Origin: an uncultured Ilumatobacter sp.
Lineage (GTDB): Bacteria > Actinomycetota > Acidimicrobiia > Acidimicrobiales > Ilumatobacteraceae
Length of the DNA stretch: 64,000 nucleotides
Assembly: GCA_905182555.1 (NCBI GenBank)
Contig: CAJJBX010000013.1
Coordinates: 1 to 64,000 of the forward strand
Direction of reading: 5' to 3'
Shown: in pieces, positions 53,378 through 63,163 of the stretch
Numbering within the stretch: the first letter of the stretch is position 1
How the letters are laid out: each line of letters opens with the position of its first letter
Made by a program: the position numbers and the translations under genes
The notes under the pieces: generated by a model
Seen by the model: only the letters and a program-made list of their open reading frames with translations
Told to the model about the DNA's origin: nothing
Database searches by the model: none

Positions 53378-55986
53378 ATGACTGCCGAGCAAGGTGCCGT
53401 AGAGGCTGCCGAACGAGTTGCGGGTGCGACCAATATCGACGTGGTGATTGTCGGCGCGGGGTTCGCCGGGATGTACCAGTTGAAGCGCATGCGCGATGCT
53501 GGGTTCAGCGCAGTCGCGATCGAGGCCGGCAACGGCGTCGGTGGCACGTGGTACTGGAACCGGTATCCGGGGGCACGCTGCGACATCCTCACGGTCGACT
53601 ATTCATACAGCTGGGACCCCGAGTTGGAGTCCGAGTGGGAATGGTCCGAGCGGTACGCCACTCAACCCGAGATCCTTCGTTACGCAAACTTCGTTGCCGA
53701 CAAACACGACCTGCGACGCGACATCCGATTCGAAACACGAGTGACTTCGGCGTCGTGGGACGAGTCGACAAAGCGGTGGACAGTCAGCACCACCAACGGT
53801 GACGTCGTTGCGCAGCACTACGTGATGGCCACCGGCTGCCTGTCGGTGCCGAAGATTCCCGACGTGCCTGGCAACGGACGTTTTGAGGGCAAGACGTACT
53901 CGACCGGCGCATGGCCGCACGAGGGCGTCGACTTCACAGGGATGCGGGTCGCCGTGATCGGCACTGGGTCATCGGGCATCCAGTCGATCCCGATCATCGC
54001 CGAGCAAGCCGCTCAGCTCACCGTGTTCCAGCGGACTCCGAACTTTTCAATGCCAGCGCATCACGGGCCAATCGCCGAGGAGCGGCTGGTTGAGTACCGC
54101 CAAGACCCTGCGCGCTACCGGCAGGAGGCACGGCACTCACGGATTGGCGTACCGTTCGTCCCCCTCGCCGAACTGAGTGCACTCGAAGTAACCGAAGCTG
54201 AACGCAACGCTACCTATGAGCAGTCATGGCAACGCGGCGAACTGGGCCAGCTGTCGCCGTTCACCGACCTGAGTATCAACGCCGAGGCGAACGACACGAT
54301 GCGTTGCTTCATTCACAACAAGATTCGCGGCATCGTTGACGACCCCGAGACCGCCGAGCTGTTGTGCCCGACCAACCACTACTTCGCCACCAAGCGACCG
54401 TGCCTCGATACGAACTACTACGCCACCTACAACCGGTCGAACGTGCGCCTCGTCGACCTACTGCAGACCCCGATCGAGTCGATCACCGAGCTCGGTATCG
54501 ATGTCACGGGCGAGTCGATGAGGTTCGACGCGATCGTGTTTGCCACCGGCTTTGATGCAATGACCGGTGCGATCGTCGGAGCCAATATCAGGGGTCGCGA
54601 TGGCATGTCGCTGCGCGATGCTTGGGCGGACGGCCCAATGACCTACCTCGGGCTGATGACAGTCGGGTTCCCAAACCTGTACATGATCACCGGGCCCGGT
54701 AGCCCGTCAGTTCTGTCGAACATGATGGTGTCGATCGAGCAGCACGTCGACTGGATCTCGGACCTTGTCGGCCACATGCGGACCAATCAGTTGGACACGG
54801 TCGAGCCGACGACGCTCGCCCAAACGAAGTGGGTGAAGCACTCAAACGACATCGCGAACATGACGCTGTTACCCACGGCAAACAGTTGGTACATGGGCGC
54901 GAATGTGCCCGGCAAACCTTCGGTGTTCCTGCCTTATCCCGGCGGCGTTGGCGCGTACCGCGAAGTGTGCGACGAGGTCGTCGAGCGCGGCTACTTCGGC
55001 TTCACGCTCGCTGGCCCTGCGGGCTCGACAACCAACGACGGCGTCATTCGCCCGGTGCAGCCCGACGTCGCTGCGATGTTGGCAGCCATGGCCGAAATGG
55101 GCCTGCCGCCACTTGAGTCGCTTTCGGTTGATGATGCGCGGGCGTTCATGGACATGTCGGCGGGCCTCCGGCCGCCGGGGCCCGATGTCGGCGAAATCGT
55201 CGACGGTGTACTGCAGGGTGCTGCCGGAGATTTGGAGTACCGGCTGTATCGGCCGGATTCCGATGGGCCACATCCGGTGGTCGTGTATTTCCACGGCGGT
55301 GGCTGGGTACTCGGCAGCCACACCTCGGACGATCCGTTGTGCCGCGACCTGTGCGTTCGTTCCGGCGCGGCGATCGTGTCGGTCAACTATCGCCATGCCC
55401 CCGAAGCGCGTTTCCCCGCTGCTGCCGACGACGGGTTTGCTGCGGTGCAGTGGGTCGCTGCGCACGCCGACGACTTGGGTCTGCGCGCTGACCAGCTCGT
55501 TGTTGCAGGTTGGAGCGCCGGCGGAAACGTTGCTGCTGTCGCATGCCAGCAGGCGCGCGATGCGGGTGGACCGGCAATCGTCGGTCAGCTCCTGTTGAAC
55601 CCGGCAACCGACTGCGACCTGACGCGGTCGTCGTACATCGAGAACGGCGATGGCTACATCCTGACGACGTCGTTGATGACGTGGTTCTGGGATCACTACT
55701 GCGACCCCGACCAGCGCAGCGATCCAAAAGCGTCGCCGCTGCGTGCCGAGACGCTGGTCGGCCTCCCGCCCACCATGATCGTCACCTGTGAGTTCGATCC
55801 GTTGCGCGACGAAGGCGATGCGTACGCCGAAGCGTTGGCTGCGGCCGGCGTCCCGGTCGAGCATTTGCAGGCCGAGGGGCACACGCACACCTCCACGAGT
55901 GCGGCAGCTGTTGATCACGCCGATGGCGATGGGAGATCATGGGCAATGCGCTGCGCGGCTTCTTCGGCGCCAACGTTCCCGCCTGA
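53378..55986 (+). CDS. Flavin monooxygenase (Baeyer-Villiger type) fused to an alpha/beta-hydrolase, 3' end frameshifted
   Basis: Residues 1-545: FAD motif [35 protein letters not shown], second motif [20 protein letters not shown] and the fingerprint region [18 protein letters not shown], where the BVMO His is Ser. Residues about 590-860: HSL-type esterase with [26 protein letters not shown] (Ser) and [10 protein letters not shown] (Asp), and His in EGHTHTS. The end [15 protein letters not shown] is two frame changes away (near 55890-55940) and stops at 55986. A ketone could be turned to an ester and hydrolysed by one protein. AAGGAG precedes the start. Confidence 0.85.
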
Positions 55987-56008
55987 CGCCTCGGCCTACT
56001 CTGTCCAC

Positions 56009-57190
56009 ATGAGCGATTCGAGTGGGTTTCCTGACTTCGTCTGGTCGATCGGCGAGGAGGGTTCCGACCCGTTCGTGATGCGCCTTGGCGAGCGGTATCG
56101 CCAAGACCAGTTCGCTGCATCGGGCCACTACGAAAATATGGAGGCCGACCTCGCGACAATCGCGGACTTAGGTGTTGCGGTCGTTCGGTACGGCACGCCG
56201 TGGCGGCTCGCCGAACCCGAGCCGGGCGTGTACGACTGGACGCTATGGGATCGTGCGCTCGCCGCGTGCGATGCGGCCGGGCTGGAACCCGTCGTTGAGT
56301 TTCTGCACTTCGGTTTGCCCGACCACTTCCCCGGCTTCATCGACGGCGCATGGGTCGACGGCTTCGTTCGCTATGTCTCGGCATTCCTGGAGCGGTATCC
56401 CGGGCCCCGCTGGTTTACTCCGGTCAACGAGCCGGGTATCACCGCGCGGCTGTCGGCCCGATTCGGCGTGTGGAACGACATGATCGCGACCCCAGAGGGG
56501 CACGCTCAGGCACTGGCCAACATCGTCCAGGCGAACCTTGAGGCAATGGCCCTGGTGTACGCCGATCGTGATGGCTGGTGGGTTGGCTCGGAGGGCTTCG
56601 ACATCCCGGTCGCTGTCACCGACTCGGCCGAGGCTGCTGGGGACGTCGAACGGATTCGCACGCTTGGTTGGTTGGTGTGGGATCTTCACTTCGGCCACGA
56701 ACCGGCTGTGCCCAACTACTTCGACACCGTCGACGCGGCGCAGTTGGCGCGGATCCGATCGCTTGCCCAGCACGACCAGCTCGTCGCTGGGCTCGACATC
56801 TATCCCATTTCGGTTACTGCTGTCGGCGGCGACCGCCCGGACTGGTCGGTACGCGAGTTGATCGACTTCTCGGTGGCCGAGATCGAGCGGTGGCACGATC
56901 GGTACGACCAGCCGTTCTGGATTGCCGAGACCTCGAACCTCACGTTGCCGCTCGATCAGCAGGTCTCGTGGCTCAACGAGTTCAGTGACGGGTTGGCGCG
57001 ACTGCGCGCCGACGGGCGGCCCGCCCGCGGGCTGTGCTGGTATTCACGCGGTGACCAGTTCGACTGGCAGACCGCGTTGATCGAACCGACCGGAGCGGTG
57101 ACCGAGGTCGGGTTGTTCGACACCGAGCGAGTCGCACGGCCGGTGGCAGCCCGGTTCAAAGAACTCGCGAACGAAGGCCCACCGCACTAA
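56009..57190 (+). CDS. Glycoside hydrolase family 1-like protein
   Basis: From ATG 56009, in the same frame as the gene before only through its frame errors, the 393-residue protein reads [20 protein letters not shown] with [23 protein letters not shown] and the acid/base motif [12 protein letters not shown], and the nucleophile in [10 protein letters not shown] near the end. This is a (beta/alpha)8 barrel of the GH1/clan A type; the sequence is far from classical beta-glucosidases, so the sugar is unknown. The track shows it as the tail of a 1270-residue ORF, which is an artefact. Confidence 0.78.
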
Positions 57191-57863
57191 CGAAGTGTGT
57201 GGCACCAGCCAAAGCGGACGATGTCAGCCCGGTTGACGATCTGGCCGTGTCAGCCGCCCTGGCGATGTTGAACATAAACCACGGGAGCGGAACGTCGACG
57301 GACGTGCCGAGATGCGCGACAACGTGACGGACCGTCCCGCCTTTGCAGAGCGTCGGCCCGTTGACCTGCTCCGCTGCCGCCTTCAAGACATCAGCGGCGG
57401 CCGACTCGTTGATCCAGGGGCCGACGCCGCTGAGCTTGTCGACGGTGATCCGTTCGATGATCGCGATGGGCGACTCGCGCATTGCGAGTGGGTGGCGTTT
57501 CAGGCTTGTGTACTTCGCTGCGAGACGGTCCATCAACTCGGGGTTGGGGCCAGGTTCAGGTGCGGCGTGCCCGCGAATGACGAGGTGGGATTGGTCGCCA
57601 CGTTCGTTCCTCTCGACTTCTTCGATCTACAGAATGAGGCGGCTGTCGCGACGAAGGTTTTGGCCTTCGCTCTGTTGGCGTCGGTGCCGAAAAGAATCTC
57701 GTCGACGTGCGCGATAACCCACACGACATCGTCCACGCGATCGCTGGGCTGCAGCCCGTCGCTGGTCGGAGTCGGTCGGGGTCGACAACGCGTCGCTCCT
57801 GACCCGCAAGACGCCGTAGCCCAGCGCTGCTCGGGGACCGCTTCGAAAGAACGGCGCCGTCAT
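57156..57863 (-). pseudogene. Broken F420/PPOX-type oxidoreductase joined to a maleylpyruvate-isomerase-like fragment
   Basis: Reading the minus strand through three frames: VVWVIAHVDEILFGTDANRAKAKT, then QNLRRDSRLIL, then HLVIRGHAAPEPGPNPELMDRLAAKYTSL and AIIERITVDKLSGVGPWI, all PPOX/F420-dependent class features. In the last frame it continues with ADVLKAAAEQVNGPTLCKGGTVRHVVAHLGTSVDVPLPWFMFN, the start of a mycothiol-dependent maleylpyruvate isomerase-like (TIGR03083) domain. The first frame part lacks a convincing start. Multiple frame changes and two incomplete families point to a decayed hybrid. Confidence 0.65.
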
Positions 57864-57912
57864 GCGTGTTACCTTCGTTTCACCGGCGGCAACCGCTGCG
57901 AATGAAAGAGGC

Positions 57913-58305
57913 ATGTGGATGAAAATCGAAGAGTTTCGCTCGATTGTGTTGTTCGATGGATTGACCGACGACGAATTGGCGCAGTGCATCGAACCGCTCA
58001 AGGAACACGAATTGGTGGCTGGCAGCAGCCTTGCCAAGCAGGACGATTTTGCCTACAAGTTCTTCATCGTGCTCGACGGCGATGTCGACATACACCGCGA
58101 CTTCGAGTTCGTTGCACGCCTCGGTCCAGGTGAGTTCTTCGGCGAGACAGCCCTCGTCAACCACGAGAAGCGCAATGCCCGAGTCACGACGCACACTCGC
58201 TGTCGCCTTGCCTGCATGATGGGCTGGGAGTTCAAGACAATGACCGAAAAATTCCCCTCTGTGGCAGTGCACATCGATGCCGCAGTCACCGAACGCGAAG
58301 TCTGA
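57913..58305 (+). CDS. Cyclic-nucleotide-binding domain protein
   Basis: A 130-residue single cNMP-binding (CRP-like beta-roll) domain: IVLFDGLTDDELAQCIEPLKEHELVAGSSLAKQDDFAYKFFIVLDGDVDIHRDFEFVARLGPGEFFGETALVNHEKRNARVTTHTRCRLACM. The PGEFFGE-x-AL-x-x-x-x-R-x-A motif is present, though A-R-V-T-T replaces the usual R-T-A-T-V, so binding of cAMP is not certain. No DNA-binding domain follows. ATG 57913 (MWMKIEEF) or 57919; GAAAGAGG precedes. Confidence 0.8.
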   Translation: MWMKIEEFRSIVLFDGLTDDELAQCIEPLKEHELVAGSSLAKQDDFAYKFFIVLDGDVDIHRDFEFVARLGPGEFFGETALVNHEKRNARVTTHTRCRLACMMGWEFKTMTEKFPSVAVHIDAAVTEREV

Positions 58306-58536: not shown

Positions 58537-59091
58537 TTAACGGCCGGCGACGCAAATCGGATTGTCGCACGCTTCAGTTCGGCATGGTCGCCGAGCACGG
58601 TGCCTGCGGGTGCGTTCGTTGGTGAAGCCTTCGATGCAACCCTTTTTCACGCAGTTCTCAGACCCACACGGGACGCCGGCCAGGTGGCGCTTTTCCTCTC
58701 GACGACGAGCCCGGGTGGGATCATCCGGTGGTTCAATCGTCTGCGGGGCTTCGGCACGCGGTTCGACAGGCGTCGGCGATGCAGGGGCGGCGTTTCGGGC
58801 TGCAACGCAGACTTCGAGTACACAGCTCGTTCGGCCGCAGGGCTGGCCCTTTTCGTGGAGTAGGGCTTGGGCCTCGGTCTTGCGTTGCTTCTTCTTCAGG
58901 CTGCGAGCCTCGCGCAGTGGTGCACATACGGCGCAGCTGCGTTCCTTGCAGATGCGGTTGCGCCCGTGGGCGAGCTCCTGCTGCTCCTCTTTGGAGAGCT
59001 GCGGTTCGGTCTTGTCCACCCAATCGCTGGCGTCTTTCCAGCGACGCGGCTGTTGGGGGTCTGGCGTTTGGAAGTCTGGAGAATCGCCCAT
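58537..59091 (-). CDS. Cys-repeat protein with four C-x4-C motifs
   Basis: The 184-residue product has a basic, charged N-terminus (DKTEPQLSKEEQQELAHGRNR) and four spaced cysteine clusters: ICKERSCAVC, PCGRTSCVLEVC, PCGSENCVKKGC and PCRTEACDNPICVAGR. Three follow P-C-x4-C-x4-C. The spacing is regular enough to suggest metal-binding modules, with a Pro/Ala/Glu-rich linker between the second and third. I do not recognise the family; it could bind zinc or iron. It lies between a single-domain cNMP-binding gene and a small ispE-like remnant. Confidence 0.65.
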   Translation of the reverse strand: MGDSPDFQTPDPQQPRRWKDASDWVDKTEPQLSKEEQQELAHGRNRICKERSCAVCAPLREARSLKKKQRKTEAQALLHEKGQPCGRTSCVLEVCVAARNAAPASPTPVEPRAEAPQTIEPPDDPTRARRREEKRHLAGVPCGSENCVKKGCIEGFTNERTRRHRARRPCRTEACDNPICVAGR

Positions 59092-59367
59092 CGTGGGGCT
59101 CAGTATCGCCGCTTTCAGACGAAGTCGCGGCGTTCCATCTCTGAACCGAAGGTCCGGAGCGCTCTGTTACTCGAACTATCGGCATGACTTGAGCCCGACT
59201 TGAGGACTTTCTTCAGAAAGTTTTTCAGGGGTATCCGGGCCACGTCCCAAACCGTTCCCCTGGCGATCGAGCAAGTCGAACATCTTGCGGGTTCTCCTGA
59301 CCGCAGCAAGCCTCGGCCGCAGATCGGAATCAGTCGAAACCCAGCACAGTACGCGCCCCGCAGCGCC

Positions 59368-59499
59368 ATGACCTGGGCACATATCAAACCCGAGCAATTG
59401 CAGGCATTGGGCCTCCAACTGGGTGCCGATGTCCCAATTTTTGTCGGCGCCCACACTGCCTGGGCCGAAACCAGCCCCTGCCAGGCGCACTTGACCCCT
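59368..59499 (+). pseudogene. IspE-like gene fragment
   Basis: The frame reads IKPEQLQALGLQLGADVPIF and VGAHTAWAETSPCQAHLTP, closely following the G-A-D-V-P-x-F segment of 4-diphosphocytidyl-2-C-methylerythritol kinase, including the following glycine loop. Only about 35 residues are present, with no GHMP kinase ATP motif upstream and a new reading frame starting where it ends. It is taken as a stray piece of ispE, which must be complete elsewhere if the pathway works. Confidence 0.6.
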
Positions 59500-60596
59500 T
59501 GCGTGCGTGCTACACCGGCACGAACAAGTTCGGTGTCGACGAGCTCGCCATGCCCGAGCCGTGGACTGGCGACCTCACCGCCAATCCGGTTGCCGTCACG
59601 TTGAGCATGCATCCCGGCTCCGCCGACCCCGCGTTCCACCATCGCGGTGGCGCATGGGCCAACACCATTCAAGATCAGCACGCTGGCTCCTCCGCCGGCT
59701 GGGCAGCAAAGGGCCCGTACTTCGGCGACGTGTGGGAATCCGCCCACGGCGCAAATGCGCACGCCGCCCATCGCCTGCGGTTTCTCTCGGCATGGAGGGG
59801 CGTCGACCTCACGCCATCGCAGGTCGTCGACTTCGCGGTTTTCCCATGGCGCACCGCCGACTGGAACAGCAGCGCATTCCAGCTTGACCCCGCCGTCTTG
59901 CAAGAGTTCGTACTCGAACCAATCGTGTCGACCGGAGCGAAATGGGCATTCGGTTTCGGCAAAGACTGGTGGGAACTGATCGAAGCCCTCGACCTTCCAA
60001 TCCTCGACCGGCTCGGCGACGGCGGACGCCCCTACCCGACTCAGGTCGATCATCGCCGCTGGCTCGTCGCCGAGGGCCCTGGCGGCCTCCGGATCGCTGC
60101 CATGCGCCTCGACTCGATGCCGGTCCCACCGAAGCAGGAAGAGACTGAAGATCTCCGCAAGGTGCTCGAGGCCGGTCCCGCTGGCGAGAACGTGCCGCGC
60201 AACATGTCACTGGAGTTCGAAACCGATCTGTCGGCGCGACTGCGCGAACTCGACATGAGCTACATGAACATCTCCCGCCTGCTGCAGGCAATCGATGAGC
60301 TCGACCTCGCGATCAGTGCATGGCAGGAACCTGCAACAGGCGAGGGCGTTGACCTCACCGCTCGCGGCGCGATCGCCGTCTCGATCCGGGCAGAGTGGGC
60401 TGACTTCGCAATGGAAGCCCCCTCCGGCACATCGGTGTCGCCCGAGACAAATGGAGCGCATCGGCTTCCGCTTCCGACCGCAGCTGCCGTCCGGCCCAAG
60501 ACCGTCAAGAAGGAACCCAAGCCACTCGGCCTGTGCACCGACTGCTTCAATATCCTCAACCCCGACGGCACCTGCCCGATGGAGTGCGGCACCTGA
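59499..60596 (+). CDS. Hypothetical protein with C-terminal Cys motif
   Basis: The frame is open from before 59499, the TTG used by the track; no ATG fits better, and the upstream frame (LGRNQPLPGALDPLRACYTG) looks protein-like, so the true start is uncertain. Segments include AVTLSMHPGSADPAFHHRGG, FGDVWESAHGANAHAAHRLR, VVDFAVFPWRTADWNSSAF and a C-terminal CTDCFNILNPDGTCPMECGT that may bind zinc. The N-terminal NPG-like motif faintly recalls uracil-DNA-glycosylase-like proteins, but this is not enough to assign it. Function unknown. Confidence 0.6.
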   Translation: MRACYTGTNKFGVDELAMPEPWTGDLTANPVAVTLSMHPGSADPAFHHRGGAWANTIQDQHAGSSAGWAAKGPYFGDVWESAHGANAHAAHRLRFLSAWRGVDLTPSQVVDFAVFPWRTADWNSSAFQLDPAVLQEFVLEPIVSTGAKWAFGFGKDWWELIEALDLPILDRLGDGGRPYPTQVDHRRWLVAEGPGGLRIAAMRLDSMPVPPKQEETEDLRKVLEAGPAGENVPRNMSLEFETDLSARLRELDMSYMNISRLLQAIDELDLAISAWQEPATGEGVDLTARGAIAVSIRAEWADFAMEAPSGTSVSPETNGAHRLPLPTAAAVRPKTVKKEPKPLGLCTDCFNILNPDGTCPMECGT

Positions 60597-61223: not shown

Positions 61224-62189
61224 GTGCGGATCACGGAACCAACCGACTCAATTGACGGTGACCGCGTCAGCAGAGCGTTCGAACAGTGGTTGAGCGCTTC
61301 AGGATTCTCGCCCCACGCCCGGGTCGTCGATTTCAGGACACCGCAATCGACGGGAAGCGGAGACATGATCTGGTTTGTCACCGTGGAGGCCGACAACACG
61401 AGTGCGGGTGTCTCTCGCAGCGAATTGGTACTCCGACTGACTCGGAGGACCAGCGGCCTTCGTTCCCCGAGTCTGGCTGTTGAAACAATGTCCGCGCTCG
61501 CCGGCCTGATCGAGGTTCCTCGCGTGCTCGCCATTGAGTCCGACCCCACTCACCTCGGATCGGAGTTTGTCGTGACCGAAAAACTTCGCGGCCGAGTCGC
61601 CCCCGACCACCCTCCCTACACGTATCACGGCTGGCTGCGGGACTCCCCGATGGAGGAACAGGAGTCAATCTGGTGGAGCGCCATCGAACAGATCTCTCGT
61701 CTTCATCGTCTTGACATTCGTACGCCTCGATTCGAGTATCTGTTCGACGGTCGCGCAGCGGTCGGTTGCGACGACGCGCTGTCCCGGCTTGCACCGCTCG
61801 CAGCAGACCTCCCCGATGGCGTCCGCAAAGGTAAAGTCCTTCGACTTATGACGGAGTTAATGGTCCGCCTTCCTGAAGCACAGACTCCGCATTGGCTGAG
61901 TTGGGGCGACTGCCGACTACCCAACATGGTGGTTGAGGGAGACTCCGTCGTGGGGTTGCTCGATTTCGAAGATGTCGGCGTCGGCGACCCGATGTCGGAC
62001 CTTGCGACCTGGCTGCTGCAGGACGAGTGGTATTCGAAGGGGCTCGGGCTGCCAAGGCTCCCCGGGTTCCCATCTCACGCCGAAACGATCGAACGGTACG
62101 CCGAGCTCTCGGGCCACGAAATCCGAGACCTTGAGTGGTGGCGCAAGTTCACGATCCTGCGCTTTTCGCTGACGCGGGCTCTGCGATGA
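61224..62189 (+). CDS. Aminoglycoside-phosphotransferase-family protein (first tandem copy)
   Basis: A 321-residue kinase-fold protein: a loop around SDDMIWFV-type segments (GSGDMIWFVTVEADN), FVVTEKLRGRVAPDHPPYTY, the catalytic loop HWLSWGDCRLPNMVV (Asp, Asn) and the DFG-like VVGLLDFEDVGVGDPMSDLA. The family phosphorylates small molecules such as amino-alcohols and macrolides or acts on acyl-CoA-related substrates; none can be chosen. GTG 61224 follows GATGAG. Its stop overlaps the second copy's start (ATGA). Confidence 0.85.
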   Translation: MRITEPTDSIDGDRVSRAFEQWLSASGFSPHARVVDFRTPQSTGSGDMIWFVTVEADNTSAGVSRSELVLRLTRRTSGLRSPSLAVETMSALAGLIEVPRVLAIESDPTHLGSEFVVTEKLRGRVAPDHPPYTYHGWLRDSPMEEQESIWWSAIEQISRLHRLDIRTPRFEYLFDGRAAVGCDDALSRLAPLAADLPDGVRKGKVLRLMTELMVRLPEAQTPHWLSWGDCRLPNMVVEGDSVVGLLDFEDVGVGDPMSDLATWLLQDEWYSKGLGLPRLPGFPSHAETIERYAELSGHEIRDLEWWRKFTILRFSLTRALR

Positions 62190-63163
62190 CCCAGCGTGGA
62201 CGGCCGACTGATGGTGTGGACCCGTCCGTCGTCAAGCACCAACTGGAGCAGTGGCTGATTGAGGTTCTCGATCTCGATGCAGAAATCCAGGCGCTCTCCG
62301 TTCCCGCCTGGTCCGGACACGGAGATCAGAACTGGTTCGTGTCAGTTCGTGACAGGGCCGAAGTGACCGCCCCGGTACGGGAGTGGGTTCTTCGAATAGA
62401 GAACCCAACCTCAGTCGATCTCGGAGTTGATTTCGGTCTTCCCTTTGAGGTGTTCTCGGCGCTGTCGAACTTCAGCGACGTCCCTGTGCCGCGATCGATC
62501 GCCCTTGAGTTGTCGTCGGAGTACTTTGGCGCACCGTTCTTCATCACCGAGCGGGTTCGTGGCCGAGAAGTTGAGGATCACCCTCCGTATGCGTTCGCGG
62601 GTTGGTTGTGGGAGGCCTCAGTTGAGGAGCAGCGTCGAGTTGCAAACTCGGTGATTGACACCGTTGCCAATCTGCATCTCGTCGATGCACGGCAGGCGTC
62701 GTTCGCCTTTCTGCAAGACGGTCGAACCACGATTGGGACCGACTCCGCACTCGCCAGATGGCGGTTGCTGCTCGACAGGTGCGATGACGGTCGAGCAGCC
62801 AAGGCGGCCCGATCGATGTGGCCACTGCTTCTCGATGGTCGCCGAGACGATCCCCCATCCCGGTCGATCTGCTGGGGCGAGGCTCGACTTGCCAACATGA
62901 TCTTCACCGACTGCACGGTGGGCGCCCTCCTCGACTTCGAGGACGTCAAGTTAGGCGCTCCCGAAGCTGACGTCGGCTCGCTGCTCTTCCGAGACGAAAT
63001 GATGACTCAGGGTCTGGGACTTCAGCCGATCCCCGGCTTCCCCTCGGAAGGCGAGACCTTGGAGCGATTCGGCTCGCTACTCGGCAGAGACCTTGAGAAC
63101 ATCCAATGGTGGAAGGACTTTGCGCAGTTCCGCTACCTGGTGAAACGGGCATTGCGCGCCTAG
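62186..63163 (+). CDS. Aminoglycoside-phosphotransferase-family protein (second tandem copy)
   Basis: A 325-residue paralogue: SGHGDQNWFVSVRDRAEVTA, FFITERVRGREVEDHPPYAFAGWL, catalytic loop SICWGEARLANMIF and GALLDFEDVKLGAPEADVG. The catalytic Asp of the W-G-D-x-R motif is Glu here, so kinase activity may be lost or changed. ATG 62186 overlaps the stop of the first copy; the pair could act as a dimer with one inactive member. The 3' end overlaps the convergent methyltransferase gene by four bases. Confidence 0.85.
   Translation: MTQRGRPTDGVDPSVVKHQLEQWLIEVLDLDAEIQALSVPAWSGHGDQNWFVSVRDRAEVTAPVREWVLRIENPTSVDLGVDFGLPFEVFSALSNFSDVPVPRSIALELSSEYFGAPFFITERVRGREVEDHPPYAFAGWLWEASVEEQRRVANSVIDTVANLHLVDARQASFAFLQDGRTTIGTDSALARWRLLLDRCDDGRAAKAARSMWPLLLDGRRDDPPSRSICWGEARLANMIFTDCTVGALLDFEDVKLGAPEADVGSLLFRDEMMTQGLGLQPIPGFPSEGETLERFGSLLGRDLENIQWWKDFAQFRYLVKRALRA

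Follow-up and report, generated by a model that had tools for sequence, protein, structure and literature searches.

What does the open reading frame at positions 58537–59091, on the minus strand of the 64,000-nucleotide stretch of Ilumatobacter DNA analysed here (the window), encode, and do the cysteines of its product form a new metal-binding repeat? The predicted protein has 184 residues (20.7 kDa, pI 9.1), 12 of which are cysteines arranged as four C-x4-C-x(2,4)-C groups. The frame, its strand and coordinates and the four cysteine strings, re-read in the sequence, are all as given in the original prediction. At least four C-x4-C-x2/4-C groups occurred in none of 100,000 composition-preserving shuffles of the protein. 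The codon score of the frame is weak (4.1) and that of an antisense frame is higher (13.2), as would be expected if the frame were not a gene and the cysteine pattern had arisen by chance or as a side effect of an antisense gene. However, conservation lies in the frame's own register: relative to the nearest homologue, in genome G004, differences at the three codon positions number 5, 3 and 34, and dN/dS is 0.06 (0.18–0.36 for the remaining homologue pairs). None of the antisense frames stays open throughout the six homologues. The substitution pattern and the lack of a shared open antisense frame thus override the weak codon-usage score. The gene is under purifying selection, and the non-gene reading, to which we attach next to no probability, is already refuted as judged from the substitution pattern.

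Five other genomes contain a homologue: four Ilumatobacter metagenome-assembled genomes (MAGs) and one Ilumatobacteraceae MAG, with identities to the window protein of 96% (G004), 59% (G010), 56% (G008), 52% (G009) and 50% (G026, which belongs to another genus than the window source). Cysteine loss in orthologues, a check proposed with the original prediction, was not found: all 12 cysteines are kept in the five homologues. Together with them, exactly four histidines (H42, H79, H136 and H164) are invariant in the alignment, and each lies exactly six residues ahead of the first cysteine of one group. The original prediction had given the repeat as C-x4-C-x(2-4)-C; its cysteine groups are real, and its unit is incomplete in that the invariant histidine was missed. 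The full repeat unit is H-x5-C-x4-C-x(2,4)-C, present in four copies on the minus strand: M1 (H42-x5-C48-x4-C53-x2-C56; 58924–58968), M2 (H79-x5-C85-x4-C90-x4-C95; 58807–58857), M3 (H136-x5-C142-x4-C147-x4-C152; 58636–58686) and M4 (H164-x5-C170-x4-C175-x4-C180; 58552–58602). The last gap is thus x2 in M1 and x4 in M2, M3 and M4, and the four residues of each module are invariant in all six homologues. Random placement, repeated 200,000 times, never produced a histidine offset shared by all four modules. Among the five divergent homologues (this comparison leaves out the near-duplicate G004), invariance holds for every one of the 16 candidate ligands, compared with 39 of the 168 remaining residues (Fisher p = 7e-10). 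Beyond the 16 candidate ligands, the only cysteines or histidines are five scattered histidines, in three homologues. These sixteen conserved potential ligands would suffice to build four metal sites. Between M2 and M3 and between M3 and M4, some similarity remains beyond the ligand positions (z 2.4–2.5), which suggests that the modules arose by internal duplication; M1 is the most divergent of the four.

The gene is carried by 6 of the 222 genomes of the family, a count that leaves out a seventh match (G179, E = 1e-4), which spans 40 residues and contains a stop. A search of about 85,000 species genomes returned the same five contigs only, titled Ilumatobacter sp. or Ilumatobacteraceae bacterium. 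Profile searches yielded no further members in the order (M3–M4 profile) or the class (M1–M2 profile); of the weak order- and class-wide matches outside the family, those inspected, including the best of each search (L041 and L072), lack the module. Pattern searches agree. The tandem M3–M4 pattern was found, among 397 genomes of the phylum, only in the family of the window protein, and the single-module pattern, searched in the 222 family genomes, falls at 12 places within the six known homologues, M2 and M3 of the window protein among them. The other nine single-module matches are no more numerous than those of a reversed-pattern control, and none has a second module. Nine viral contigs contain the exact M3–M4 pattern; the match is interrupted by stop codons in eight of them, the ninth is of low complexity, and they are therefore not relatives. 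No relatives of the protein were found in phages, plasmids or viral contigs. The protein is so far known only from Ilumatobacter and one close relative, with a narrow and patchy distribution.

In all six genomes, GCGATACT lies 9–10 nucleotides upstream of the ATG. In the window, the element is GGCGATACT (59102–59110, minus strand), 10 nucleotides ahead of the ATG. It is best read as a probable −10 promoter box, from which we infer a transcript with a short leader or almost none; the spacing GGCGATACT-N6-14-ATG has only four matches in the genome compared with two for a control. G004 is syntenic with the window around the gene. Otherwise the neighbouring genes differ between genomes, except that G008 and G009 have a downstream acyl-CoA dehydrogenase in common, and no conserved neighbour or operon was found around the gene among the homologue contigs.

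The divergent neighbour in the window (59499–60596, plus strand) matches Brig1, an NCBIfam family of anti-phage DNA glycosylases (E = 5.5e-42, 144 bits compared with a cut-off of 230). It covers profile positions 32–254, so that the N terminus is missing, and carries a cysteine-rich C-terminal tail, CTDCFNILNPDGTCPMEC. A defence role linked to this neighbour was considered and rejected: the region is decayed in G004, and the contigs that carry the remaining homologues showed nothing resembling it, so its adjacency to the four-module gene looks accidental. Directly upstream of the Brig1-like frame, at 59200–59604 (plus strand) and in another frame, is a 27-residue IspE fragment (TIGR00154, E = 3.7e-5) that looks like a recombination remnant. 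Further features of the surroundings are a single 1270-residue frame (53378–57190, plus strand) that joins a flavin monooxygenase, an alpha/beta hydrolase and a glycosyl hydrolase-like domain, the last part of which matches a separate frame region in G008; a short piece of the N-terminal domain of a mycothiol-dependent maleylpyruvate isomerase (PF11716; 57156–57536, minus strand), probably a decayed gene; a segment (57808–58292) that is absent from the otherwise matching G004 contig and holds most of a gene for a cyclic-nucleotide-binding protein (57862–58305); and two tandem APH-type phosphotransferase genes (61224–63163, plus strand), about 40% identical to each other as judged through cross-comparison with G004.

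A match to a known family, the other check proposed with the original prediction, was likewise not found: no family reaches cut-off for the four-module protein in Pfam, PHROGs, NCBIfam or PADLOC. There was no PHROG match up to E = 10 and no match to a PADLOC anti-phage defence model up to E = 1, and a literature search on HX5CX4C and CX4CX4C retrieved nothing relevant. Perm-CXXC (PF15629) matches M1 weakly (residues 43–64, E = 0.009); the match is restricted to this module, reaches 16.7 bits compared with a cut-off of 23 and is seen in two of the six homologues, the window protein among them. Similarities to Ku, a proteasome activator and Geminivirus AL2 are all sub-threshold. A metallothionein reading was rejected because the 12 cysteines and 4 histidines are thinly spread over 184 residues and fall into regular groups. 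The protein belongs to a genuine, narrowly distributed and uncharacterised family, and its module is in none of the libraries searched. Since no known family reaches cut-off and all cysteines are kept, the proposed small new metal-binding repeat is the best-supported reading, although the repeat had been described incompletely and metal binding is what we infer from it.

A structural model was generated with AlphaFold2 from the six-sequence alignment (mean pLDDT 73, full-length pTM 0.36). It contains helices at residues 34–43, 56–80, 93–100, 125–137, 150–165 and 178–183. In each module, the model puts the histidine at or near a helix end; two of the cysteines follow in the loop, and the third lies where the following helix begins. 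A long predicted helix (residues 56–80; 58852–58926, minus strand; pLDDT about 90 in the full model) starts at C56 and carries H79, thereby linking M1 to M2; a second (residues 150–165; 58597–58644, minus strand; pLDDT 73–83) carries C152 and H164 and links M3 to M4. Between these two-module halves is a Pro/Ala-rich linker (residues 101–124; 58720–58791, minus strand), variable in the alignment and with the lowest interior pLDDT. The first half (M1–M2, about 70 residues) reaches a mean pLDDT of 91 when modelled alone, and the C-terminal half is less certain (62–83). Sequence searches of the PDB, run with the full alignment and with the two halves separately, gave no significant match, a Foldseek search of the PDB with the full and the N-terminal-half models gave no significant fold match, and a BFVD fold search returned only matches of E = 7.8 or worse.

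From these features we propose that the protein is probably a cytoplasmic protein with four structural metal sites, a helix–loop–helix scaffold for partner binding. Each module would hold one metal, most likely zinc and less probably another metal or an iron–sulphur cluster, through one histidine from a helix end, two cysteines from the loop and a third cysteine in the opening turn of the helix that follows. With ligands spread in this way over a helix end, a loop and the next helix, each metal would pin two consecutive helices together. M1 and M2 would have the 25-residue helix in common and M3 and M4 the 16-residue helix, giving two rigid two-metal helical units with a flexible linker between them. 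The exposed basic surfaces of the helices could then serve as a platform for a partner, as in TAZ scaffolds; that the scaffold binds a protein or a nucleic acid is probable, and is the most speculative part of the proposal. Counting against the four-site scaffold are the low full-length pTM and the modest pLDDT of the C-terminal half, as well as the lack of a homologous structure and of a conserved neighbour or operon.

Some iron–sulphur proteins also use His–Cys3 ligation, and Actinomycetota commonly encode WhiB proteins; each module might therefore hold an iron–sulphur cluster and the protein act as a WhiB-like redox or iron–sulphur sensor. We regard this as unlikely, because neither WhiB nor any other iron–sulphur family was matched in Pfam or NCBIfam, and because four separate C-x4-C-x4-C sites bridging helix pairs look structural and not cluster-type. 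A stronger competitor, plausible but short of an even chance, has the same architecture and a different partner: the modules would be nucleic-acid-binding zinc knuckles that place Arg/Lys-rich helices on DNA or RNA, for example in a small regulator associated with transcription or RNA. The basic pI agrees with this (9.0–9.9 among the homologous proteins and 9.4–10.6 in the C-terminal half, above all with its RTRRHRARRPC helix), as does the fact that the gene stands alone behind a conserved promoter-like element of its own, whereas no nucleic-acid-binding zinc finger is similar and no known DNA-binding fold was matched.

Two eukaryotic domains invite comparison with the four-site scaffold. The first is AZUL (PF16558), which consists of two helices and a zinc finger with the zinc coordinated by cysteines (PMC7064531), and the protein could be a divergent relative of this domain, known from UBE3A, repeated four times. 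AZUL gives sub-threshold Pfam matches in four of the six homologues (best E = 0.25), and E = 0.03–0.05 on two isolated M4 fragments, chiefly over the zinc loop. However, the scores of 8–15 bits, compared with a cut-off of 23.8, centre on the cysteine loop, and unrelated loci in the same genomes score equally or higher. AZUL, moreover, has one site with cysteine ligands (PMC7064531), whereas the window protein has four candidate His–Cys3 modules, each with an invariant histidine ahead of it. Common descent with AZUL is thus very improbable, and the likeness is one of helices with a zinc finger and of weak loop similarity near the cysteines.

The closer analogue is TAZ (PF02135; TAZ1 and TAZ2 of CBP/p300), with several HCCC-type sites in a small helical domain, which in the window protein is a predicted feature. 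In TAZ, the ligands sit between successive helices; the third site of TAZ1, H-x3-C-x4-C-x2-C, is close to M1. TAZ2 is a protein-binding helical bundle with three zinc ions, each bound by one histidine and three cysteines (PMC12022988), and it unfolds without zinc (PMC3534135). A genome-wide search with PF02135 gave no match at E values up to 1, and the family was not listed in the Pfam scans, which extended to E = 5 or 10; likewise, no TAZ entry appears up to E = 10 in the Foldseek search of the PDB with either model, a method that is weak on small helical folds. The protein appears to resemble TAZ, and more loosely AZUL, in principle and without membership.

There is close to an even chance, in our judgement, that the family represents a new bacterial zinc-module fold of tandem units, in which each metal ties one helix to the next and adjacent units have a helix in common, and that it is an independent, TAZ-like HCCC invention restricted to Ilumatobacteraceae. 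The narrow and patchy distribution limits its general importance. At 184 residues, and with a confidently predicted first half, the protein is directly accessible to tests of metal content and structure. If zinc occupies the four sites, the protein would be the bacterial equivalent of helical multi-zinc scaffolds of the HCCC type, best known from the eukaryotic co-activators CBP/p300. Its ligand spacing would be its own, with no shared ancestry detectable between the two, and the HCCC binding-platform design would have arisen more than once. It would differ from TAZ in having four sites instead of three, an H-x5-C spacing and two halves joined by a flexible linker, and in being bacterial.
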